A stretch of 64,000 nucleotides of DNA from an uncultured Bacteroidales bacterium (GTDB lineage: Bacteria; Bacteroidota; Bacteroidia; Bacteroidales; FEN-979). The notes below the pieces were generated by a model. The model did no database searches and was not told the DNA's origin. It was given only the letters and a program-made list of their open reading frames with translations. Of the stretch, positions 38,553 through 56,191 are shown in pieces (position 1 is the first letter of the stretch; every line of letters starts with the position of its first letter). Made by a program: the position numbers and the translations under genes. Where the stretch lies: contig CAIVAT010000116.1 in the NCBI GenBank assembly GCA_903903985.1, positions 62,001-126,000 of the forward strand, read 5' to 3'.

Positions 38553-39584
38553 ATGATGAAATTCACAGCAGCACAAATTGCGGGCATGGTTGGCGGAACC
38601 ATTGAAGGCGACCCCGAAGCAATCATTACAAGTTTGTCTAAAATTGATGAAGGTGAACCCGGTTCAATTACATTCCTGTCAAATCCGCTCTATACCCCGT
38701 TTATCTATTCAACAAAGGCCTCCATCGTCATTGTAAACAATTCCTTTACACCCGAACATGCCATAAGCTCAACCCTGATCCGTGTGGGGAGCGCCGATGT
38801 TGCATTTGCCAAACTGCTTGAAGCATACAACCAGATTAAATATGATAAAAAAGGGGTGTCGGCACTAAGTTCAGTCTCTTCTTCCGCGACTGTTGGCGAA
38901 AATGTCTATATCGGCGAGTATGCCGTTATTGGCGACCGTTGTGTTATCGGGAATAATGTAAAGATCTTTCCTCATGTGGTTGTTGGTGAAAATTCAACTG
39001 TTGGCGATGACACCATGCTTTTTGCGGGGGTTAAAATTTATTCGGATAATGTCATCGGAAAGAATTGCATTCTTCATGCCGGAACGGTTATCGGGAGCGA
39101 TGGCTTCAGGTTCAACCAGCAGGATGGCAGGAATGTGAAGGTACCCCAGATCGGCAATGTAATCCTCGAAGATGATGTGGAAACCGGTGCCAACTGCACC
39201 ATCGACCGGGCCACCTTTGGGTCGACCATCATCCGCCGGGGAGTTAAACTTGACAACCTTGTTCACATCGCCCATAATTGCGAAATCGGCGAAAATACAT
39301 GTATTGCCGCTGCGACAGGGATTGCCGGATCGTGCAAAATCGGAAGAAATTGCTTTATCAGCGGACATGTGGCCATTGCCCCGCATCTCACTATTGCTGA
39401 CAATACCTCCATGGGAGGTGCTACCGGTGTGACAAAAAGCCTCGTAAAGTCAGGTATGTTCTTCCTTGGATCGCCCGCAATGGAAGCCACCAAATTCAGG
39501 AAATCCATCGCATGGTTCCGCAACCTGCCTGAACTGGCCGAACGGTTAAGCAAGTTGGAAAAAGAACAGAAAAACAAGCCCTGA
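38553..39584 (+). CDS. lpxD: UDP-3-O-(3-hydroxyacyl)glucosamine N-acyltransferase LpxD
   Basis: Third step of lipid A synthesis: it transfers a 3-hydroxyacyl chain from ACP to UDP-3-O-acyl-glucosamine in the cytoplasm. 343 residues, normal length. The N-terminal uridine-binding domain (GMVGGTIEGDPEAIITSLSKIDEGEPGSITFL, read in segments) is followed by many left-handed beta-helix hexapeptides and a C-terminal helix (NLPELAERLSKLEKE). The catalytic His is H241 (VHIAHNCEIG), and GSDGFRF and DRATFGSTII are family signatures. No lpxC, fabZ or lpxA is adjacent, so it is separated from the usual lipid A cluster. Confidence 0.97.
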   Translation: MMKFTAAQIAGMVGGTIEGDPEAIITSLSKIDEGEPGSITFLSNPLYTPFIYSTKASIVIVNNSFTPEHAISSTLIRVGSADVAFAKLLEAYNQIKYDKKGVSALSSVSSSATVGENVYIGEYAVIGDRCVIGNNVKIFPHVVVGENSTVGDDTMLFAGVKIYSDNVIGKNCILHAGTVIGSDGFRFNQQDGRNVKVPQIGNVILEDDVETGANCTIDRATFGSTIIRRGVKLDNLVHIAHNCEIGENTCIAAATGIAGSCKIGRNCFISGHVAIAPHLTIADNTSMGGATGVTKSLVKSGMFFLGSPAMEATKFRKSIAWFRNLPELAERLSKLEKEQKNKP

Positions 39585-39635: not shown

Positions 39636-39643
39636 TATATTTG
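39636..39643 (+). promoter_or_regulatory. Promoter of the aromatic operon (-7 box TATATTTG)
   Basis: Exact TAnnTTTG. A TTTC (39612-39615), one base off the -33 TTTG, lies exactly 20 nt upstream. Initiation around 39650 would give a leader RNA of about 205 nt that contains the leader peptide and terminator before the first gene. Confidence 0.65.
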
Positions 39644-39705
39644 CAGCTTCATTGAAAACAAGACCGTTAAAACAGGTGTACATTTAAAAAATTACAGGAC
39701 AGATC

Positions 39706-39786
39706 ATGGATTTATATTTCCCGACCTTCGCTTTTAGTTTTAATTTCTATTATTACTACCATAAAACAATGTGTTTGGATAGATAA
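39706..39786 (+). CDS. Phe/Tyr-rich leader peptide of the aromatic operon
   Basis: A 26-codon frame, ATG 39706 to TAA 39786. Ten of the 26 residues are Phe (5) or Tyr (5), including the run FAFSFNFYYYY at codons 8-18. No other part of this leader could justify such composition. It sits between the promoter and the intrinsic terminator ahead of pheA, where a ribosome-mediated attenuator needs its control peptide. Shortage of charged tRNA-Phe or tRNA-Tyr would stall the ribosome in codons 8-18. The peptide itself probably has no function. Its last codons (39771-39780) double as RNA segment 2 of the attenuator. Confidence 0.85.
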   Translation: MDLYFPTFAFSFNFYYYYHKTMCLDR

Positions 39787-39830
39787 AAATTGCATGACAA
39801 AATTTTAAATCCCGACACCTGAAGTCGGGA
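39719..39830 (+). promoter_or_regulatory. Transcription attenuator with four RNA segments
   Basis: Segment 1 is TCCCGAC (39719-39725), inside the leader peptide. Segment 2 is GTGTTTGGAT (39771-39780), the peptide's last codons. Segment 3 is ATCCCGACAC (39809-39818). Segment 4 is GTCGGGA (39824-39830). Pairing 3:4 makes the terminator. Pairing 2:3 makes an antiterminator of ten positions with one G.U and one mismatch (39776 x 39813). Pairing 1:2 is possible because segment 1 repeats the core of segment 3 exactly. A ribosome at the Tyr codons leaves segment 2 free (antitermination), and one at the stop codon covers it (termination). The pairings are read from the sequence; the mechanism is inferred from classical attenuators. 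Confidence 0.8.
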
Positions 39831-39839
39831 TTTTTTTTT
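39810..39839 (+). terminator. Intrinsic terminator of the attenuator
   Basis: TCCCGAC pairs with GTCGGGA (7 bp, loop ACCTGAA) and is followed by nine T's. It lies 226 nt after lpxD but only 26 nt (from hairpin end) before pheA, and downstream of the -7 box, so it acts on the aromatic operon's own leader. Confidence 0.9.
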
Positions 39840-39855
39840 AATACATTTCGGATCA

Positions 39856-40740
39856 ATGAATAATTTGAAATTAATAAAAGTTGCTATCCAGGGTATTTCA
39901 GGCGCATTCCACGAAATAGCAGCACGGGCTTATTTTAACAGCAAAGAAATAGAAATTACAGAATGTGACACATTCAAAGAAGTTGTTAATTCAGTAAAAA
40001 ACGGAATATCTGAATTTGGTATCATCGCCATTGAAAATTCAATTGTGGGAAGCATATTGCCAAACTATAAAATTATTCAGGAATCAAAATTGAATATTTC
40101 AGGCGAAATGTTTATTCCAATCCAGCAAAATTTAATGGCTCTTCCTGGTCAGAAGCTTGAAAATTTAACAGAGATCTATTCCCATCCGATGGCCATTCAG
40201 CAATGCGAGGAATTCTTTGCCCGGTATCCAGACATAAAAATAATTGAATCCATTGATACCGCCCTGAGTGCAAAAAAAATCAAAGTTGAAGGAATAACCG
40301 GCAGAGGCGCCATCGCAAGTAAACTGGCTGCATCCATTTATGGTCTTGATATCATCGCTGAGCGCATAGAAACCAATACCAGGAATTATACCAGATTTTT
40401 AATTGTTGAAGAAAAACCTGCGAATCAATCATCCGTTGTTCCTGTTCATATTGATAAATCATCGATCTGCTTTTCATTGACCCATGAATCCGGCAGCCTT
40501 TCAAACGTACTGTCTGTCCTCGCATTTTACAACATGAATTTGACAAAAATTCAATCGATGCCGATCATTGGCAGGGAATGGGAGTATTTATTTCATATTG
40601 ACCTGGTTTTTAACAACTATAAAAGATATACGCAGGCCCTCATTGCCATTGAGCCATTGACAAGCGACATGGAGATCCTTGGGGAATATCATGCGTATGA
40701 CAAAGCAAAAGAGATATTCAGCAGCAAAGATGAAAACTAA
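39856..40740 (+). CDS. pheA: Prephenate dehydratase
   Basis: Converts prephenate to phenylpyruvate, the committed step to phenylalanine, in the cytoplasm. 294 residues: catalytic domain 1-185 with the substrate motif NTRNYTRF (174-181; the TRF triad is essential in the family), then an ACT regulatory domain (about 205-280). The usual Phe-binding motif of the ACT domain, ESRP, reads QSMP here (LTKIQSMPI), so feedback inhibition may differ. There is no chorismate mutase domain; in this operon that activity is fused to DAHP synthase. It is the first structural gene after the attenuator and abuts the aminotransferase with no gap. Confidence 0.95.
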   Translation: MNNLKLIKVAIQGISGAFHEIAARAYFNSKEIEITECDTFKEVVNSVKNGISEFGIIAIENSIVGSILPNYKIIQESKLNISGEMFIPIQQNLMALPGQKLENLTEIYSHPMAIQQCEEFFARYPDIKIIESIDTALSAKKIKVEGITGRGAIASKLAASIYGLDIIAERIETNTRNYTRFLIVEEKPANQSSVVPVHIDKSSICFSLTHESGSLSNVLSVLAFYNMNLTKIQSMPIIGREWEYLFHIDLVFNNYKRYTQALIAIEPLTSDMEILGEYHAYDKAKEIFSSKDEN

Positions 40741-41904
40741 ATGAAAATAAAACCGGCAAACAGAACCGATTCCGTCCAGGAATATTATTTTTCAACCAAG
40801 CTCGCCGAAATTGCAACGATGAACCAGCAGGGCCTGAATGTGATCAATCTTGGGATTGGCAGCCCTGATTTGTCGCCCTCACAAAACACAATTGAAAAAC
40901 TTATTGAATCAGCCGGAAATCCTAAAAATCATGGATACCAGAGTTATAAGGGCATACCGGAATTGCGAAATGCTTTTTCAGCCTGGTACAAAAAATATTT
41001 TAATGTAACGCTGAATCCCTCAAATGAAATTTTGCCTTTGCTGGGATCAAAGGAAGGCATCATGCATATTTCTCTGGCATTTGTAAACGAAGGGGACGAA
41101 GTATTGATCCCAAACCCCGGATACCCGACCTATCAATCCGTTTCAAAGCTGGTCGGTGCCGTGATCAGGCCTTATCCTCTGGACAAACGAACCCATTGGA
41201 TGCCCGATCTGGTTGCACTGGAAAAGGAAAACCTGGAGAATGTCAAATTGATGTGGGTCAATTATCCCAACATGCCAACCGGCGCCAGGGCAACACGTGA
41301 ATTGTTTCAAAACCTGGTTGATTTTGGCTTAAGGAACAACATCCTGATCTGCAACGACAATCCGTACAGCTTTATATTAAATGACCGGCAGCTGAGTATC
41401 CTTGAAACCGAAGGGGCCAGAGAAACAGCCCTGGAACTCAATTCACTGAGCAAGTCACAGCACATGGCGGGCTGGAGAATTGGCATGGTTGCCGGAGATG
41501 CAGCGTTGATCGATGCGATTTTAAAAGTCAAGAGCAATATGGATTCAGGAATGTTCCTGCCGCTGCAATTGGCTGCAGTTGAATCATTGGGGAATCCTCC
41601 GCAATGGTACACAGAGATCAATTTAACCTATGCTCACCGCAGGGAGATGGTATATGAAATCCTCGATATTCTTGATTGTGAATATGAACCGGATCAAACT
41701 GGCATGTTCGTTTGGGCACGGGTTCCCGGGCGATTCGGAAATGGCATGGAATTATCGGATCTGGTTTTGAAGGATGCACGGGTGTTCCTCACTCCCGGGT
41801 TCATTTTTGGCACCCAGGGGGACGGGTATATCAGAATATCACTATGCGCAAATGAATCGCTGTTATTGGAAGCGAAGCAACGGATTTTGCTGATCAGCAG
41901 ATGA
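40741..41904 (+). CDS. PLP class I aminotransferase (probable aromatic aminotransferase)
   Basis: 387 residues, fold type I. It binds PLP through K238 (SLSKSQHMAGWRIG); the phosphate/substrate-handling motifs NLGIGSPDL, PNPGYPTY and ICNDNPYSF are present. The sequence resembles LL-diaminopimelate/aspartate-type enzymes. Its place between prephenate dehydratase and prephenate dehydrogenase indicates transamination of phenylpyruvate and 4-hydroxyphenylpyruvate. It starts at the base after the pheA stop. Confidence 0.88.
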   Translation: MKIKPANRTDSVQEYYFSTKLAEIATMNQQGLNVINLGIGSPDLSPSQNTIEKLIESAGNPKNHGYQSYKGIPELRNAFSAWYKKYFNVTLNPSNEILPLLGSKEGIMHISLAFVNEGDEVLIPNPGYPTYQSVSKLVGAVIRPYPLDKRTHWMPDLVALEKENLENVKLMWVNYPNMPTGARATRELFQNLVDFGLRNNILICNDNPYSFILNDRQLSILETEGARETALELNSLSKSQHMAGWRIGMVAGDAALIDAILKVKSNMDSGMFLPLQLAAVESLGNPPQWYTEINLTYAHRREMVYEILDILDCEYEPDQTGMFVWARVPGRFGNGMELSDLVLKDARVFLTPGFIFGTQGDGYIRISLCANESLLLEAKQRILLISR

Positions 41905-44934: not shown

Positions 44935-45534
44935 ATGAAATCATCTGAACAACAGCCAATGATCAAATCCGGGAATCCGGAACAGATGGTTCGCTTTAAA
45001 AACAATGTGGCACTTGTCGGCTTTATGGGAACAGGAAAAACAACCGTTGGCAGGCTGCTGGCTGATAAATACGAACTCGCTTTTATAGACATCGACGAAT
45101 GCATCGCAAAAAAAGTTTCCATGGATATCCCAACCATATTCAGCCGGCATGGAGAAACATTTTTTCGTAATTTGGAGGAGGAAATTTTGAAAGAAATTTT
45201 AACGGGTGAGTTCCAGGTTGTTTCATGTGGCGGAGGAATTATAGTAAGGGAATCAAACAGGACCCTGCTGAAAAGAAATGCCGTAACCTGCTGGCTGTAC
45301 AATTCGGTGGAGACCTCCCTGTCAAGGATTTCAGGCACAGGCCGGCCCCTGATAAACAGGTCAGAACCTGTTCAGAAGGCGATGGATCTTTACCGGGAGC
45401 GGGAAGCCTATTACCGTGAAGTGGCCAGTTGCAGTCTTTGCACGGAAAACCTGGGCCAAGCGCAAATTGCAACGATGATCGGTAAAGAATTTTATACAAA
45501 TTATTTTTTGAATCCAAAGGATTTAAAACCCTAA
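44935..45534 (+). CDS. aroK: Shikimate kinase
   Basis: ATP-dependent 3-phosphorylation of shikimate. 199 residues with the Walker A loop GFMGTGKTTVGR (K35), shikimate-binding D and R residues in FIDIDECIAKK and FFRNLEEEIL, the glycine loop VSCGGGII, and the adenine-loop Arg in GTGRPLINR. An N-terminal extension of about 24 residues precedes the core. A later start at ATG 44959 (MIKSGNPEQ) is possible. Gap 16 nt upstream, 10 nt downstream. Confidence 0.95.
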   Translation: MKSSEQQPMIKSGNPEQMVRFKNNVALVGFMGTGKTTVGRLLADKYELAFIDIDECIAKKVSMDIPTIFSRHGETFFRNLEEEILKEILTGEFQVVSCGGGIIVRESNRTLLKRNAVTCWLYNSVETSLSRISGTGRPLINRSEPVQKAMDLYREREAYYREVASCSLCTENLGQAQIATMIGKEFYTNYFLNPKDLKP

Positions 45535-47278: not shown

Positions 47279-50200
47279 ATGAAAAAGCAATTATTCTTTT
47301 TGATTACGATCTTTTCAGCTGCTGCACTGTTTACGCAAACCACGTTAGCACAGGTTACCACAAACAGCGGGTCAGGGCTTTCTCCAACCTATCCCAGCCT
47401 GGCCACCGCCATTGCAGCGCTGAACAGTGCTACCATTACCGACCCTGTTACCATCACATTGACAGGGAATGAAACAGCGCCATCCTCCGGATACCTGATC
47501 ACCAAAGCCGGCACTAAAACAAATCCCATCATCATCGAGGGGAACACCGGCATTGTGACGGCATTTTCCCCGCAACCTGCCGGGAGCCGGCTCGATGCGA
47601 TTTTCAGGATCCTGGGAGGCGATTACATTACCATCAGGAATTTTACAATGCAGGAAAATGCAGGGAATATGGTTACGGCTGTAGGCAACAACACGATGAC
47701 CGAATTCGGGGTCGCAGTGTTTTATGGTTCTACCAGCAACGGTGCGCAAAACAATACCATTCAGAACAATACGATCACCCTTAGAAGCACCTATCAGAAT
47801 TCGATCGGAATTTATTCGACAACGCAACATTCATACAACAATTATTCCACGGTCGCGCCGGCCGTTTCAAACGGCGGGCTGAACAGCGGCATGAAAATTT
47901 ATGGGAACAATATATCAAATGTGGCCTTTGGCATACAGTATATTTCCACTCCCAATACTCCCTCCATCATCGATTCGGGTGTTGAAATCGGAGGCAATTC
48001 CAGCCTGACGGGAAACATGGTCACTTTCGAAAGTACGCTCTATTCCGATGCCGGGTGGGCAAGTTTCAACAACTATCCTACAGGAATCAAATATATGAAT
48101 GGAGTCAATATTAACATCCAGTACAATTCAGTAACGTCAACCAACATCCTGACATCTGTAACGGGAATCCGGATAGATAACAGTACTTCACCCTATGGAG
48201 TATACTACACGAACATGATCAGCAACAATGTGATCAATATTATCACCTACGCCACCGGTACTCCCTATTCAAGTTGTATCAATTTTGGCGTCGGTTCACC
48301 TGAAGGATCCACCGCATGTAATAATAATACAATGAGTATCACTCAAAGTGTTAATACCAGTGTTTCCGGCAGGGTTCAGGGAATCATCAATAGTCTGAAT
48401 GGTATTTCCTCGGAAGCGAATGGCAATTTAATCACACTCAGCCAGGCCACCTCGGCCGGTTCAAATTCATCATGGGTGTGTGCAATCAACAATGGCCCCA
48501 CGACCCCACCTGCAGCCAATTCCATTCAGAAGATCCAGGATAACATTATTACCATCAAACAAAATTCCACGGGTGGAACTTACACCGCCGACGTAGTTTA
48601 TCTCGGTGCCCATTGGGCCGGATCCGGCAACATCGGAACAGGCATCATTAGCAATAACCAACTGCTTACAACCGGTTCAACAATCAGAACTTCTACCTAT
48701 GTCTATGGGATCCATCACGATTACACATTCAGCAATATGTTAACCATTGATGGGAATACCATCAACTGGGACCTGACAGGTCCCTGCAACACGTATGTTA
48801 CCTATGCAACCTCTTCATCGGGTTCATCTTCGCAGATCAACGTAACAAACAACAACATCACTTTTACCGGACCCATCGCAGGCGGGTCGACCCACACCAT
48901 GTTTTTTGAACAGGATGGGATTGGCGCCACCCAGACCTATAAAAACATAAGCAACAACACCATTTTTGTAAATACCCCGAATATTTACTCAAGGGTCACC
49001 CTCTTTTCAAGTGCCAAAGCTTATGGAACCTTCTCAAATAACAACTGTAACGTGACCTGTGCGAGTTATATTACCGGTAGTTACCTATATGATCCCTCCG
49101 GTCCCTGGACCCTGGACCACAACACCTATTCCTTTACATCAACTGGTGTATCCGCCATGTCAAATGCCATTCTCCTCTCTGCTGGAAGTGGCCATGTGGT
49201 TTCGAACAACACGATAACCAACATCAATTTCAGCGCGGGAGGATCCAGTGGACCCTACATGTCAGCTATCAACATTGAATCCACTGATGCAACCAGCATG
49301 AATTACATTTTCGGAAATAAAATATACGGCATGTCGACCGGTGCCGGTTCCGGCAGTGCCCAGGTAACCGGTATTGTCGTTTCGGGGGGGATGAACAGCA
49401 TCTATAAAAACAAGATATACAACCTCACTTCTTCCTGCACAGGAACAGGCACATTCGTCGCGGGAATACGGGTTCTCGGCGGAGCTCAAAACAATGTTTA
49501 TAACAATCTGATCGGTCTTACGAATGCATTAACCGGCGTGAACAGCCCCGATGCCGTAAGGGGTATTGACATCAGCTCCACGACATTGAACTCCCTGAAC
49601 AAAGTTTATTACAACACCATTTTCCTAAACCTCAGTTCAACCGGAACGAATTTCGGAACCACCGGCATCGAACATACTGTCAGCGCCACACCAACAACAT
49701 CAACGCTGGATATGCGAAACAACATCATTGTGAATACCTCCACGGCAAAAGGAACCGGACTTAGCGCGGCATTCCGGAGGTCGGGGACAGCGCTGGCAAA
49801 CTATGCCTCCACCTCCGACCATAACCTCTTTTATGCCGGCACCCCCTCTGCAACCAACCTGGTATTTTATGATGGAACAAATTCCGACCAGACCTTGTTA
49901 AATTATCAAATGCGGGTCTCCCCTGCTGATGCATTTTCAGCCACCGAGAACCCGTTGTGGCTCAGCACCTCCGGTTCGGATGCAGGATTCCTTCATATCG
50001 ATCCATCGGTTCTAACTGCCATTGAAAGTGGAGGTACAAACATCGCAGGCTACCCTGATGATTTTGATGGTGATGTGCGCCAGGGAAACCCGGGATATAC
50101 TGGCACAGGGACAGCACCGGATATCGGCGCCGATGAATTTGAAGGCCAGCCATTGCCCTGGTGCGCAGGCCAGCCTGCAGCATCAACCATATCCGGACCT

Positions 50201-53200
50201 GCCGTTGTTTGCGCTTATTCAGGAACAACACTTTCACTAAGCCAAGCCTATGCAGGCCGCGGAATAACCTATCAATGGGGCTACTCAACCACGGCCGGCG
50301 GACCCTATTCCAACCTGGGAACTTTCTCTACACAAGCAACAGGAAATCTATCAGTCCCGACCTATTATATATGCACCATCACCTGTTCTTCCAGTAACTT
50401 ATCCTTCACAACAGCAGAAAAATCTGTTTTAATCAATGAATTACCCTATGTGGCCGTTACTCCGGCCTCTGCCTCCTATTGCATTCCCGGTCCGGCAATT
50501 ACTTTGACGGCAAGCGGAGCCAGCACCTATTCATGGAGTCCGTCAAGCGGCCTGGATGTTACATCTGGTGCGGTTGTCCATGCCTCCCCGGCAATAAACA
50601 CGGTGTATACGGTGACCGGCACCGGCAGCAATGGTTGCACCTACTCAGCCAGTGCTGCAGTCACTGTTGGCGCCGCCGTTACAATGTACAGTGTAACGGC
50701 TGCTCCATCCATCGTTTGCAGCAATGGGAGTACAACACTGCAGGCATATGCAACGCTACCGTATTCCTCTTATTGCACTGCATCTGCCTCCAATACATCA
50801 TATGAGAAAATAGCTAACGTAACCCTGAATAGCATTTACAATCCATCCAGTTCCACTGCTGGATACGAGAATTTCACTTCCGTCAGCACCATCCTGGACG
50901 CCGGCATTTCATACTGGATGACGGTCAGCGTTTCATTGGCCTATGCCAATGATGACCGTGTGCTGGTCTGGATCGACATGAACCAGGACGGTGTTTTTAC
51001 CGACCCGGATGAAAGGGTGTATTCGGCAGCGGTAAGTTCATTTTGTCCATCCTGTTCGGGAACAACTACTGCCATGTTGAGCGGCACTGTGATCGTTCCA
51101 TTTACCGCCCTGAATGGGAATACCCGGATGAGGGTAAGGTTATATGACAATGGTTATGGTCCGAACGCAACTCCCTGCGGTATCTCCACCTATGGGCAGG
51201 TTGAAGATTACACCGTAAGCATTCAAGGGGGCAGCGATCCATTCACCTATACCTGGAGTGAAATCCCAATGTCTGGAACCTTGACAGGCACAACCGCCAA
51301 CCCAACCACAGCGACCGGGATCACGGTTCCGCAAACCTATACAGTCATAGCCACTTCCTATGCCGGGTGCACGGCAACCGGAAGTGTACTTGTTCCGATT
51401 GCCACTCCTGTAACAGGCGTAAGCATCACCAGTTCACCTGCCTGTGATGGCGTTGATTTTATGGTCACGGCAAATACATCCGGTGGCGGAGTATCGTTGC
51501 ATTACGCCTGGAGCGATGGGGCAGGCGGAGTTTATCCCGATGCCCGGAATGTGACGGCCAACCTTGCCGGCGGATTCCATGATTTTTCAGTTACCGTTAC
51601 CGATGAATGCGGCAGCGCATGTACCATGAGCCAGGGGATTACCGTGAGTGCTTCTCCAGGTGGCATCGCTTCAGGCCCTTCCACCGGATACACCTATGAC
51701 AATTTGTCTTACACAGTTGCCGGGTTCGTTTCCGGAGCAACTTTTCAATGGCAAATTTCTACCTCCGGTTGCCTGTCAGGATATTCTGATATTGTTGGGG
51801 CGACAACAGAAATGGTGATCCTGCCCATGATTGTTGCCAGAATCTACTTTGTAAGGTGCCTTGTTACCGGGCCAAACGGTTGTACAGCCGCTACAAACTC
51901 TGTCACTACCCTGATTTCAGTGGGTGGCGATAACGTGTGCTCATCCCTACCCCTGTCAATCGGATTAAACGGTCCTTATACCAACTATGGCGCAACAACA
52001 GAAGCGGGCGAGCCGGTGCCGCCGGGAACAGGATGTACCACGCAAACAGGATGGTGCCCTGGACAAACCATGAGCAATACCATCTGGTTTCACTTCGTTG
52101 CCCCGCCATCGGGAAGGATCTCCATTGGGAATAATCCGCTATTAAACCAGTGGAACAACCAGTTTGCCCTTTACTGGGCAGAAACATGCCAGGACCTCTT
52201 TGGAGGAGGCGCCACCCTTATCGCAGCCAACGATGACTCGACTGTATCAACATCCCCTTACAAAGCATGGATTGCTCCTGTCTGCCTTATCCCGGGAGCC
52301 ACCTATTTTTTGCAGGTAGATGGCAATGGCACCACAACAAAAACCGGCTGGGGTATCAGGCTGAAGGAAGAGCCCAATGCCCCGCCGGTCATTTCAGGTT
52401 GCCCGGGGAATATGATTGTTCCGGTTAATGCCAGTAATTGCAGTGCGTTTGTAACATGGACGCTGCCAGTAGTTTCAGATCCGGATAATTGTCTCAGCCC
52501 GGTCAATTTTACCAGCAATTATAATCCGGGATCAAATTTCCCGATGGGTTCAACAACCGTTACCTACACAGCCTGTGATGGAATAAATCCTCCTCAAACA
52601 TGCAGTTTTACTATCACTGTGGTAAACGATAACAGGGTAAATATAAGCGGATCCAGGAGTATTTGCGTCAGGGGTTCAACAACGCTCGATGCAGGAACCG
52701 GATATTCAAACTATATCTGGTCGACCGGAGCAACGACCCAAACCATCACGGTCAACACGGCATCAACCTACACAGTGACTGCAACAGACATTTTCGGGTG
52801 TACCTCTTCCTCGTCAGCAACCACAGCAATTGTTCCTTTACCCATCTGCTTCGTTGTCACCGGCGGCGGCAGCTATTGTGCCGGCGGTACCGGTGTCCCG
52901 GTCGGTCTTTCCGGCTCGCAAACAGGGGTCAACTATACACTCTGGAGCTATTCCGGGGAGATTGCAGGACCGGTACCGGGTACGGGCGGCCCGCTTTCCT
53001 TTGGTCTCCAGACATTACCCGGGTACATCATGGCACGTGCTGAAAATATTGCAACAGGATGTACGAACTGGATGTATAATTTTATTGTGATCAGTATTAC
53101 CCAACCTGTACCGGTAAGTGTTTCTATAAATGCATCCGCCAACCCTTCAGTTGCCGGGGAGGATGTCACCTTTACAGCCACAGCGGTAAACGGAGGTGAC

Positions 53201-53902
53201 ACCCCTTCTTTCCAATGGCAGGTGAATGGCTTTAATGCAGGAATCAATAGTTCAGCGTATACCTGTCAACCAGTCAACGGTGATAGGGTGACCTGCGTGG
53301 TGACCTCGAGCAAAAACTGTGTTTTGGGCAATCCGGCTGCATCCGACACTTTGTTCATGATTGTGAATGGCATTTCCCCGCATATTACGATCATAGGAAC
53401 CATTGCGGGCGGACAAAGCAGATGCTTCAACGCCGCGGAGATCATCGCGGTTGGAGGAGGCGGGACTCGTTTCATGGTTGAAAATGAAGGCAGTGCTGTG
53501 ATGATCGCAGGGCAGAGCATCCATTTTCTGCCAACCAGCCTCGTAAAATCCGGAGGTTATTTGTGGGGTCATATTGCCCCAACCGGCCCGTTTTGCCAAC
53601 CTCCTGCCATGCCGGCAGTCGCTGCTGACCAGGAGGAACCGATAAACGCAATGACTGGATCCTTCTTTAAAGTATATCCCAACCCGACAAGCGGAAAATT
53701 TAACATTGAATTTGCTGGGGAAGCCATAGATGCCCCGGTGGTCGTGAAAATCTATAACATGACGGGTTCAATCATCGGGGAGAAAGTGATCCGGTCAGGC
53801 AAAATCCATGAATTTTCTTTAATCAACCAAAGTCCCGGCATCTACCTGATCAGAGTTGCCCAGGGAAAAGAAACCGGTATTGGAAAAATCATCAGGCAAT
53901 AG
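47279..53902 (+). CDS. Giant T9SS-exported surface protein with beta-helix, GEVED, PPC-like and HYR modules
   Basis: 2207 residues. Signal peptide 1-24 (LFFLITIFSAAALFTQTTLA). Residues about 30-950 are a right-handed parallel beta-helix with Asn-rich turns (NNTIQNNTI, ISNNTIFVNT, YKNKIYNLTS), ending in the common motif APDIGADEFEG. Then come Ig/PKD-like beta domains, a GEVED domain (about 1160-1315; DRVLVWIDMNQDGVFTDPDE ... GQVEDYTVSI), a pre-peptidase C-terminal-like domain (about 1550-1700), a HYR domain (about 1700-1784; PVISGCPGNMIVPV) and more Ig-like repeats. Last, from about 2132, is a T9SS sorting domain (VYPNPTSGKFNIEF ... PGIYLIRV). Beta-helix parts can be adhesins or polysaccharide-binding or lyase modules; no catalytic site is visible, so adhesion is only likely. 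Confidence 0.88.
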   Translation: MKKQLFFLITIFSAAALFTQTTLAQVTTNSGSGLSPTYPSLATAIAALNSATITDPVTITLTGNETAPSSGYLITKAGTKTNPIIIEGNTGIVTAFSPQPAGSRLDAIFRILGGDYITIRNFTMQENAGNMVTAVGNNTMTEFGVAVFYGSTSNGAQNNTIQNNTITLRSTYQNSIGIYSTTQHSYNNYSTVAPAVSNGGLNSGMKIYGNNISNVAFGIQYISTPNTPSIIDSGVEIGGNSSLTGNMVTFESTLYSDAGWASFNNYPTGIKYMNGVNINIQYNSVTSTNILTSVTGIRIDNSTSPYGVYYTNMISNNVINIITYATGTPYSSCINFGVGSPEGSTACNNNTMSITQSVNTSVSGRVQGIINSLNGISSEANGNLITLSQATSAGSNSSWVCAINNGPTTPPAANSIQKIQDNIITIKQNSTGGTYTADVVYLGAHWAGSGNIGTGIISNNQLLTTGSTIRTSTYVYGIHHDYTFSNMLTIDGNTINWDLTGPCNTYVTYATSSSGSSSQINVTNNNITFTGPIAGGSTHTMFFEQDGIGATQTYKNISNNTIFVNTPNIYSRVTLFSSAKAYGTFSNNNCNVTCASYITGSYLYDPSGPWTLDHNTYSFTSTGVSAMSNAILLSAGSGHVVSNNTITNINFSAGGSSGPYMSAINIESTDATSMNYIFGNKIYGMSTGAGSGSAQVTGIVVSGGMNSIYKNKIYNLTSSCTGTGTFVAGIRVLGGAQNNVYNNLIGLTNALTGVNSPDAVRGIDISSTTLNSLNKVYYNTIFLNLSSTGTNFGTTGIEHTVSATPTTSTLDMRNNIIVNTSTAKGTGLSAAFRRSGTALANYASTSDHNLFYAGTPSATNLVFYDGTNSDQTLLNYQMRVSPADAFSATENPLWLSTSGSDAGFLHIDPSVLTAIESGGTNIAGYPDDFDGDVRQGNPGYTGTGTAPDIGADEFEGQPLPWCAGQPAASTISGPAVVCAYSGTTLSLSQAYAGRGITYQWGYSTTAGGPYSNLGTFSTQATGNLSVPTYYICTITCSSSNLSFTTAEKSVLINELPYVAVTPASASYCIPGPAITLTASGASTYSWSPSSGLDVTSGAVVHASPAINTVYTVTGTGSNGCTYSASAAVTVGAAVTMYSVTAAPSIVCSNGSTTLQAYATLPYSSYCTASASNTSYEKIANVTLNSIYNPSSSTAGYENFTSVSTILDAGISYWMTVSVSLAYANDDRVLVWIDMNQDGVFTDPDERVYSAAVSSFCPSCSGTTTAMLSGTVIVPFTALNGNTRMRVRLYDNGYGPNATPCGISTYGQVEDYTVSIQGGSDPFTYTWSEIPMSGTLTGTTANPTTATGITVPQTYTVIATSYAGCTATGSVLVPIATPVTGVSITSSPACDGVDFMVTANTSGGGVSLHYAWSDGAGGVYPDARNVTANLAGGFHDFSVTVTDECGSACTMSQGITVSASPGGIASGPSTGYTYDNLSYTVAGFVSGATFQWQISTSGCLSGYSDIVGATTEMVILPMIVARIYFVRCLVTGPNGCTAATNSVTTLISVGGDNVCSSLPLSIGLNGPYTNYGATTEAGEPVPPGTGCTTQTGWCPGQTMSNTIWFHFVAPPSGRISIGNNPLLNQWNNQFALYWAETCQDLFGGGATLIAANDDSTVSTSPYKAWIAPVCLIPGATYFLQVDGNGTTTKTGWGIRLKEEPNAPPVISGCPGNMIVPVNASNCSAFVTWTLPVVSDPDNCLSPVNFTSNYNPGSNFPMGSTTVTYTACDGINPPQTCSFTITVVNDNRVNISGSRSICVRGSTTLDAGTGYSNYIWSTGATTQTITVNTASTYTVTATDIFGCTSSSSATTAIVPLPICFVVTGGGSYCAGGTGVPVGLSGSQTGVNYTLWSYSGEIAGPVPGTGGPLSFGLQTLPGYIMARAENIATGCTNWMYNFIVISITQPVPVSVSINASANPSVAGEDVTFTATAVNGGDTPSFQWQVNGFNAGINSSAYTCQPVNGDRVTCVVTSSKNCVLGNPAASDTLFMIVNGISPHITIIGTIAGGQSRCFNAAEIIAVGGGGTRFMVENEGSAVMIAGQSIHFLPTSLVKSGGYLWGHIAPTGPFCQPPAMPAVAADQEEPINAMTGSFFKVYPNPTSGKFNIEFAGEAIDAPVVVKIYNMTGSIIGEKVIRSGKIHEFSLINQSPGIYLIRVAQGKETGIGKIIRQ

Positions 53903-54562: not shown

Positions 54563-56191
54563 TCAGGCGGGGAAAAGGTATTCCTTCCCTCCGATAATGA
54601 TTTTATAATCCATGATACGGGGCCAAAGCGGCGGCATAAGGTCCTTATTCCAAATTTCAAACACTTCCTTCAGCCTGACCAGTTCTTCCGGTTTTATTTC
54701 ATGCAGATCGATGCTTTCATATCTGTCCTCCCTGAGATTATACAGCTCGATCCAGCCATCGCGAATACTCTGTATATACTTCCAGTCGCCCATGCGCATG
54801 GCCTTGATATGGTCGGCCTTCCAGTAAAATTGCTCATGGGGCATCCCTTCTTTACTGCCGGTGAGATAAGGCATCAGGTCAGTGCCGTCATATACCCGGT
54901 CATCAGGCAGTTCACATTCAGCGAGTTTAATGGTAGTCATGAAGATATCCATTGAACTGACAGGGTTTTTGTATATCGTTCCGGCCTTCAGCCTTCCTTC
55001 CCATTTCATTAAGAAAGGCACGTTAACTCCCCCTTCGAACATGGTCAGTTTTCCTCCTTTATAAGGTTTGTTATCCGTGGCCCTGGTGTATGCGGCTCCC
55101 CCGTTATCACTGATCAGGTAAATGATCGTGTTATTCTCCAGGCCAAGTGATCTGAGTTTTTCCATCATCTCGCCAACAGCATCATCCAGAGCCGATACCA
55201 TGGCATAATAGACCCTTTTATTCTCGTCCTTCACATCGTCGTATATCTCATAATAATACCTGGGCGCCTGGAAAGGAACATGCACTGCATTGAAGGCTAC
55301 ATAAAGGAAAAAGGGTTCCTTTTTATGGATGGCCATGTAAGAAATGGCTTCATCCTTGATCGCATCGGTAAGGTATCTTTTCTCTTTGATGATCTTGTCG
55401 TTCCGGCGGATGGCGCTGGTCTCCTTCCTGCCCTTTTTCCATTGATGCTTTGCGCTGTATGAGTCCTGGATATAGTTGACCATATTGGGATCTTTCCGCT
55501 TCTCAGAATAAAGTGAAAATGCACCGTAAAAACCATACTGGTAATCGAATCCCCGGTTATTCGGGATGTGGTCTTTGGAATATCCCAGGTGCCATTTGCC
55601 AATGCATGCGGTAGAATAGCTTCGCATTTTCAGGAATTCTGCAAGGTTTATCTCTGTGGGAAGGAGTCCCTGTTTTTGTATCTGCCATTCAGGGGGGAAC
55701 CTGGGTTTTTCATCGAGGACAAACTCCCCTGTATTCATCAGGTACTTTCCTATCCAGTAAGATGGCAGGTTGTTGGGATAGATCTCCATCGGCTGTGTCT
55801 CAAACCCGTAACGTTCATTGTAGCGGCCGGTAAGAAGTGCAGCACGCGACGGAGCACATACCGGGGCGGTTACATAGCAATCGTTAAACCGGATCCCCTC
55901 GGCGGCAAGTTGGTCCAGATGTGGCGTATTCACAGTAGTGGACCCGTAACACGAAATCTCTGATTTACCCAGGTCATCCACCACGATCAACAGGATATTG
56001 GGTGGCCGGCCGGCTGAACAGGGTGGCAATGCCTTTTGCAGGAACTTTTTCTTGAAGGCAAGCTTGTTTTTATCGTATTTGATATTCCATTTATAACTGG
56101 CTGTTGTAAAAGGGAATACGCATCCAAATGCCATGATGACTATGAACATCATGCCAATATACAAATTGTTGTGTCTCCTGATCCTGTTCAT
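54563..56191 (-). CDS. Exported sulfatase (S1 family, formylglycine type)
   Basis: Sulfate-ester hydrolase, 542 residues. An N-terminal hydrophobic segment (IGMMFIVIMAFGCVFPFTT) gives export, possibly as a lipoprotein. The core begins PPNILLIVVDDLGKSEISCYG with the metal pair D72-D73. The formylglycine motif is C112-A-P-S-R (APVCAPSRAALLTGR). Further metal and active-site elements are CIGKWHLGY and LISDNGGAAYTRA. Activation needs a formylglycine-generating enzyme or anSME, not present here. The substrate, perhaps a sulfated glycan, is unknown. Confidence 0.92.
   Translation of the reverse strand: MNRIRRHNNLYIGMMFIVIMAFGCVFPFTTASYKWNIKYDKNKLAFKKKFLQKALPPCSAGRPPNILLIVVDDLGKSEISCYGSTTVNTPHLDQLAAEGIRFNDCYVTAPVCAPSRAALLTGRYNERYGFETQPMEIYPNNLPSYWIGKYLMNTGEFVLDEKPRFPPEWQIQKQGLLPTEINLAEFLKMRSYSTACIGKWHLGYSKDHIPNNRGFDYQYGFYGAFSLYSEKRKDPNMVNYIQDSYSAKHQWKKGRKETSAIRRNDKIIKEKRYLTDAIKDEAISYMAIHKKEPFFLYVAFNAVHVPFQAPRYYYEIYDDVKDENKRVYYAMVSALDDAVGEMMEKLRSLGLENNTIIYLISDNGGAAYTRATDNKPYKGGKLTMFEGGVNVPFLMKWEGRLKAGTIYKNPVSSMDIFMTTIKLAECELPDDRVYDGTDLMPYLTGSKEGMPHEQFYWKADHIKAMRMGDWKYIQSIRDGWIELYNLREDRYESIDLHEIKPEELVRLKEVFEIWNKDLMPPLWPRIMDYKIIIGGKEYLFPA

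Follow-up and report, generated by a model that had tools for sequence, protein, structure and literature searches.

A candidate three-segment attenuator with Phe and Tyr codons ahead of an aromatic amino acid operon in an uncultured Bacteroidales bacterium and its relatives

The window, the whole 64,000-nucleotide stretch of DNA from an uncultured Bacteroidales bacterium that was analyzed here, contains seven closely spaced aromatic genes, all located on the + strand downstream of a short leader:

39856-40740, + strand: prephenate dehydratase (PDT), PF00800 with E = 1.3e-55
40741-41904, + strand: class I/II aminotransferase (AT), PF00155
41938-42780, + strand: prephenate dehydrogenase (tyrA), NF006307 above cut-off, PF02153 and PF20463
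42785-43876, + strand: DAHP synthase fused to type II chorismate mutase (DAHPS/CM), PF00793 and PF01817
43881-44918, + strand: 3-dehydroquinate synthase (aroB), TIGR01357 above cut-off
44935-45534, + strand: shikimate kinase (aroK), PF01202
45545-46516, + strand: chorismate synthase (aroC) of a short type, TIGR00033 above cut-off, matching model positions 1-149 and 175-348

Further downstream, positions 47279-53902 encode a 2207-residue protein with GEVED, HYR and C-terminal secretion sorting domains. The leader itself consists of the following elements:

39636-39643, + strand: likely -7 box TATATTTG, read directly from the window sequence
39696-39699, + strand: Shine-Dalgarno-like AGGA ahead of the leader ORF
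39706-39786, + strand: leader peptide ORF MDLYFPTFAFSFNFYYYYHKTMCLDR with 5 Phe and 5 Tyr among its 26 codons
39771-39780, + strand: segment 2, the antiterminator 5' half, overlapping the final codons of the leader ORF
39807-39816, + strand: segment 3, the terminator 5' arm, common to antiterminator and terminator
39824-39839, + strand: segment 4, the terminator 3' arm (39824-39833), with the T run to 39839

The Phe/Tyr run of the leader ORF ends at 39759 and its stop codon occupies 39784-39786. Terminator scoring returned a terminator-like hairpin at 39807-39833 with a 10-pair stem, 5 G-C pairs and a 7-base loop; nine T's are located at 39831-39839. Segment 2, GTGTTTGGAT (39771-39780), can pair with ATCCCGACAC (39809-39818) at 9 of 10 positions including one G-T, and the 2:3 pairing in the window extends to 39818. 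A previous sequence-only reading had claimed the box, the 26-codon ORF, the hairpin, the nine T's and the antiterminator, and reading and recomputation located each of them at the coordinates it gave. Two general features of an attenuator, a short ORF rich in codons for the end products of the operon and an intrinsic terminator, precede the first gene. No Rfam family reached its gathering score in the window. The Phe_leader family (RF01859) reached 22.8 bits (E = 0.11), below its gathering score of 55, hence the leader is not a member as judged by this model. A match to the P9 family covering 39746-39833 (28.5 bits, gathering score 43, E = 0.00023 in a 321-base search) was rejected as an identity and taken as chance.

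Of 295 genomes of the order, 126 (window included) had a match in a protein search with the PDT of the window. Two genomes with the match at a contig edge were left out; 124 loci were assembled and another three with less than 200 nt upstream were omitted, leaving 121 genomes for analysis. Conditions were set such that a terminator with a score of at least 8 and an ATG-initiated ORF with at least 5 Phe/Tyr within 10 codons had to occur within 350 nt upstream of PDT. A Phe/Tyr-rich ORF was found in 107 genomes (window included) and a terminator in 105; both were present in 101 of the 121 genomes, again including the window, and this joint test failed in 20. Dinucleotide shuffles never contained both elements (0/1210; 18 had a terminator and 90 a leader), nor did other gene starts of the same loci (0/382; 19 and 7, respectively). 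The putative attenuator is the usual arrangement in those genomes of the order which have the PDT gene, and not an isolated case.

Further properties were determined for a set of 96 modules in which each genome is represented once. Of the 96 leaders, 91 contain two or more Phe as well as two or more Tyr codons, and 78 contain three or more of each; 29 leaders also contained Trp codons and two lacked Tyr. Within the codon run, 17 close pairs of sequences differed by 8 synonymous versus 11 non-synonymous changes.

For each of the 96 modules, the best duplex of the stretch between codon run and terminator with the terminator 5' arm plus loop was calculated. The duplex with the module's own arm had a mean energy of -14.8 kcal/mol as compared to -10.1 kcal/mol with the arms of other genomes. 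In 90 modules the own arm was better than the mean swapped arm (P = 4e-17), in the other six it was not; it exceeded the mean of 20 region shuffles in all 96. For the window, the 2:3 duplex reached -10.6 kcal/mol with its own arm as compared to a mean of -6.0 kcal/mol with swapped arms, and it is weaker than the 96-module mean. Furthermore, at least 5 consecutive positions of arm 3 take part in both stems in 92 of 96 modules, with 69 distinct words of varying length. Thus, the predicted 2:3 and 3:4 stems covary across three segments. As is characteristic of attenuators, the antiterminator and the terminator are mutually exclusive, and the covariation shows that the antiterminator is conserved. 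The sequence-only reading had proposed to look in relatives for conserved Phe/Tyr codons and for covariation in both stems; the former was seen in 107 of 121 genomes and the latter in the preference for the own arm (90/96) and the shared positions (92/96).

The distance between the Phe/Tyr run and segment 2 is also conserved, with a median of 9 nt and quartiles of 7-11 nt, in agreement with the earlier claim that the spacing in the window fits a stalled ribosome. In all 96 modules, segment 2 starts before or at most 13 nt past the end of the stop codon. Assuming a ribosome footprint of 9 nt past the A-site codon, a ribosome in the run would leave segment 2 free and a ribosome at the stop codon would cover it.

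The window contains the heptamer TCCCGAC at 39719-39725, a copy of the terminator 5' arm; the longest shared word is thus 7 nt as compared to a mean of 4.5 nt in shuffles of its own stretch. This repeat had been proposed to act as a segment 1 competing for segment 2, as in a complete four-segment attenuator of the enterobacterial type, in which the 1:2 stem acts as protector. The copy is indeed present, but a competing 1:2 stem is at chance level: 1:2 pairing was better than shuffles in 49 of 96 modules (P = 0.35) and better than swapped regions in 52 (P = 0.06), and the 1:2 pairing of the window (-5.0) is weaker than both shuffled (-7.7) and swapped (-5.9) pairings. The longest word shared with the terminator 5' arm averaged 4.3 nt over the 96 modules as compared to 4.2 nt in shuffles, and a shared word of at least 7 nt occurred in only three of the 96, window included; hence, the repeat at 39719-39725 is probably a chance occurrence. 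The protector stem 1:2 of the classical four-segment attenuators of E. coli trp and pheA was thus supported neither across the 96 modules nor in the window, and a four-segment design is very improbable here. The design supported by the predicted pairings is one of three segments. Since a 1:2 stem lacks support, transcription may continue past a leader that is not translated; the folding results are in line with this for the window, but not for the family median. Without a ribosome, the terminator of the window had a probability of 0.05 and arm 3 was paired upstream with 0.72, whereas the median terminator probability of the 96 modules was 0.95.

Additionally, the start regions of the leaders were compared. 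Of the 96 modules, 75 carry the motif TAnnTTTG, which we take to be the -7 promoter element of Bacteroidota, no more than 120 nt ahead of the leader ATG, as compared to 9.2 expected from shuffles. In 50 of these 75 modules the box lies 18-30 nt ahead of the ATG; the TATATTTG box of the window ends 62 nt ahead of it, and its spacing is therefore atypical. A promoter scan with the E. coli consensus was uninformative for Bacteroidota. Shine-Dalgarno-like words were not enriched ahead of the leaders (4 of 95 modules, the window among them, versus 8.3 expected); the 14 nt preceding the leader ATG are A-rich, with 0.38-0.61 per position.

A named collection of 80 loci, which overlaps the order-wide genome set, was analyzed as well; two loci with 75 and 5 nt upstream were left out and one was dropped for its short upstream sequence. 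At least one module was found in 60 of 77 loci and none in 17. Carriers include Phocaeicola vulgatus ATCC 8482, in which GAAGCGGGA within the leader ORF faces TCCCGCTTC within the terminator, as well as Paraprevotella xylaniphila, Natronoflexus pectinivorans and Parabacteroides. In a wider sample, 215 of 247 genomes matched the PDT. The window and two members of the order were set aside, and the 27 loci with the next best scores, all from outside the order, comprised 26 of the same class and one of the same phylum; bifunctional and distant PDTs were left out. When the criteria were relaxed to 4 Phe/Tyr in 10 codons and a terminator score of 7, leader and terminator were found in 22 of these 27 loci and a leader alone in the remaining five. 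Shuffled stretches of the outside loci gave a leader in 102 of 270 cases and a module in none; therefore, the 22 modules count and the five bare leaders count little. Segment 2 preferred its own terminator arm in 22 of 22 outside modules (P = 4e-5).

When the region up to 900 nt upstream of PDT was considered, 86 of the 121 genomes (window included) had one module, 16 had two and 19 had none; shuffles of these stretches yielded a module in 0 of 363 cases.

L003, L013, L026, L027, L028, L044, L066, L067, L070, L074, L075, L079, L098, L106, L107, L109: a pair of complete Phe/Tyr modules, one after the other, ahead of PDT

In the 16 tandem genomes, segment 2 preferred its own arm over the arm of the neighboring module in 26 of 32 comparisons (P = 7e-6), with duplex means of -14.0 and -9.6, respectively. 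Both modules are retained in three species of one genus (G050, G262, G166) and in two genomes of another genus (G141, G240). A named locus (L176) also has two modules, and two more genomes gained a second module at looser thresholds. Five of the 19 module-less genomes gained a module when GTG/TTG starts or looser scores were allowed and 14 did not; a Phe/Tyr leader without a scored terminator was present in five (G175, G095, G200, G269, G147), and nothing convincing was found in nine after loosening the thresholds.

Modules of the same kind were found ahead of other operons of the order. A module with a His run was present in 20 of 28 hisG loci (L247-L274; three in tandem, L248, L271 and L274) as compared to 0 of 280 shuffles, and a module with a Trp run in 14 of 21 trpE-like loci (L277-L297; one in tandem, L291) as compared to 0 of 210 shuffles. 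These counts refer to 28 of 30 hisG loci, two partial matches being left out, and to 21 of 30 trpE-like loci, nine lower-scoring relatives being left out; trpE was assigned by best score only, because no match reached the curated cut-off of the family. In the genome of the window, hisG was not matched and the trpE family was matched only weakly, hence the his and trp modules of its relatives are uninformative on this genome.

In 74 loci that extend 6 kb or more downstream, the gene order PDT-AT-tyrA-DAHPS/CM-aroB-aroK-aroC was found in the window only; the commonest order was PDT-AT-DAHPS/CM-tyrA (27 of 74), in a survey which may miss divergent genes and in which several loci end near the expected place of aroC. 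PDT was absent from all 36 other genomes of the genus and family in the protein search and from 27 of 27 in a search with PF00800. The five genes through lpxD match two genomes of the genus (G013, G014) in the same order with 55-85% identity. None of the operon genes occurred in six lpxD neighborhoods, those of five relatives and of the second copy in this genome, which extend only a few kb past lpxD. The aroC of the window lacks about 25 model positions around 150-175. This two-stretch match is shared with G042, G043 and G050, where it lies on the same contigs as PDT, and the short type occurs in several genomes of the order; all 22 other family members searched have an aroC without such a break (that of G010 lies in pieces on two contigs). 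A second aroC was not found in the genome of the window, which is 87% complete. Horizontal acquisition of the operon together with its attenuator downstream of a genus-typical lpxD seems to be the simplest reading of these comparisons; alternatively, loss elsewhere or an assembly join may account for them. The right flank at 54563-56191, which encodes a sulfatase family protein, was rejected as an origin marker: it matched 13 of 25 genomes with at best 37% identity in the genus, so the origin of this flank cannot be told from it. Besides lpxD of the window (38553-39584), the genome contains a second close copy (C172, 69% identity) and another that is more distant (C187, 54%); the second close copy may have arisen by duplication or may indicate that the bin is mixed.

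We propose, with a probability of about 0.88, that the leader of the window is a ribosome-mediated transcription attenuator sensing charged tRNA-Phe and tRNA-Tyr. The leader RNA would be synthesized by RNA polymerase while a ribosome translates the 26-codon ORF. If Phe and Tyr are both plentiful, the ribosome would reach the stop codon and cover segment 2; segment 3 would then be free to pair with segment 4, and the resulting terminator would halt transcription. When either amino acid is scarce, the ribosome would stall in the run, with segment 2 lying beyond the ribosome edge; segment 2 would pair with segment 3 before segment 4 exists, and the polymerase would read into the operon. As both codons occur in one run, shortage of either amino acid should stall the ribosome. 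Translation of the ORF, stalling, read-through and transcription of the operon are predicted from the arrangement of the leader. Starvation for Phe or Tyr would accordingly be expected to raise expression, and the seven genes probably form one transcript.

In folding calculations with a stalled ribosome and arm 4 absent, arm 3 paired upstream with a probability of 0.86 in the window and of more than 0.5 in 92 of 96 modules. At equilibrium with the full hairpin, the terminator of the window prevailed in both ribosome states (0.96 and 0.96); among the 96 modules, it was favored by more than 0.05 with the ribosome at the stop codon in 34 and disfavored in none. Equilibrium folding was therefore rejected as a proof of switching. 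Since it does not separate the two ribosome states, switching would have to be kinetic and co-transcriptional.

The prevalence of the terminator at equilibrium in both states is also what would be expected of a constitutive or factor-controlled terminator, which trims transcription by a fixed fraction or under the control of a protein, the ORF being incidental. If the ORF were incidental, its retention in 107 of 121 genomes, together with a segment 2 that covaries with the terminator, would not be expected, and we consider this explanation very improbable. Conservation of the ORF, and the promoter-like box upstream of it, would equally suit a functional small protein next to a regulatory terminator of separate purpose. 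Across the modules, however, the leader ORF varies in length from 10 to 41 aa and in its end sequences, only the Phe/Tyr run recurs, and His and Trp runs take its place at hisG and trpE-like loci; a small-protein function is hence exceedingly improbable. Just as improbable is a T-box or riboswitch, i.e. a leader binding uncharged tRNA or a metabolite instead of sensing by the ribosome. Such leaders would account for the terminator/antiterminator pair, but they would give no reason for the codon run or for its regular spacing from segment 2, and no Rfam family was found at gathering score in the window.

Taken further, and with about even odds, an attenuator of three segments, lacking a protector stem and in most cases a Shine-Dalgarno sequence to guide leader translation, could be the default control of aromatic as well as his and trp operons in a broad part of Bacteroidota. 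The aromatic leaders would then act as two-input gates which stop transcription only if Phe and Tyr are both plentiful; in some lineages two modules for the same signal in series would provide two checkpoints, making the response sharper or wider, and unit and operon could be transferred horizontally together. In classical attenuation, the translating ribosome has to follow RNA polymerase closely. If control is exerted as proposed, such coupling would occur at the leaders of a large group of bacteria from gut and environment; little description of amino acid regulation in this group was found in the literature search. A clear copy of the attenuator is present in a named commensal, P. vulgatus ATCC 8482.

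The enterobacterial pheA leader is Phe-rich only and four-segmented, with alternative stems, and the textbook scheme of trp attenuation likewise has a 1:2 stem. The leader of the window resembles that of pheA in that a short Phe-rich ORF and a terminator precede a prephenate dehydratase gene; it differs by containing Tyr codons too, by the larger operon, by having no supported 1:2 stem and by the absence of Shine-Dalgarno enrichment. A Phe/Tyr leader of Bacteroidota was not found described in a literature search that was thin on subscription papers. A 2010 paper by Lopatovskaya et al. may cover Bacteroidota. PMC2864571 includes Bacteroid-trp (RF01692), which had no match in the window, among the likely cis-regulatory RNAs of Bacteroidetes; a term search of the main text of this paper returned neither 'attenuation' nor 'leader peptide'. 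The trpE-like loci studied here are similar to Bacteroid-trp in carrying Trp-codon leaders with terminators, but Bacteroid-trp belongs by name to trp operons, whereas the leader of the window precedes a PDT operon. For the same phylum, a study based on a transcriptome map of Flavobacterium psychrophilum reports, in passages that do not name the operons, strong clues that amino acid operons are controlled by leader peptide attenuation (PMC9723704); the earlier statement that no characterized example was known in the phylum thus has to be corrected, as such clues had already been published. Short ORFs reminiscent of leader peptides are also mentioned for Bacteroides thetaiotaomicron in PMC7366714.

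New here are the tandem modules in 16 of 121 genomes and the apparent horizontal acquisition of the window operon with its putative attenuator. Tandem attenuators for the same signal in a biosynthetic operon were not found described in the literature search, with the same thin coverage of subscription papers. According to PMC3641672, the Salmonella mgtCBR leader RNA contains two leader ORFs in series, which respond to different signals (ATP and proline) in a virulence/Mg operon, and nutrient-biosynthesis genes are normally under a single attenuator. The tandem modules described here differ from mgtCBR in that both contain Phe/Tyr runs and precede a biosynthetic gene; two attenuators in series for the same signal would provide a biosynthetic operon with a natural transcriptional gate of two steps.
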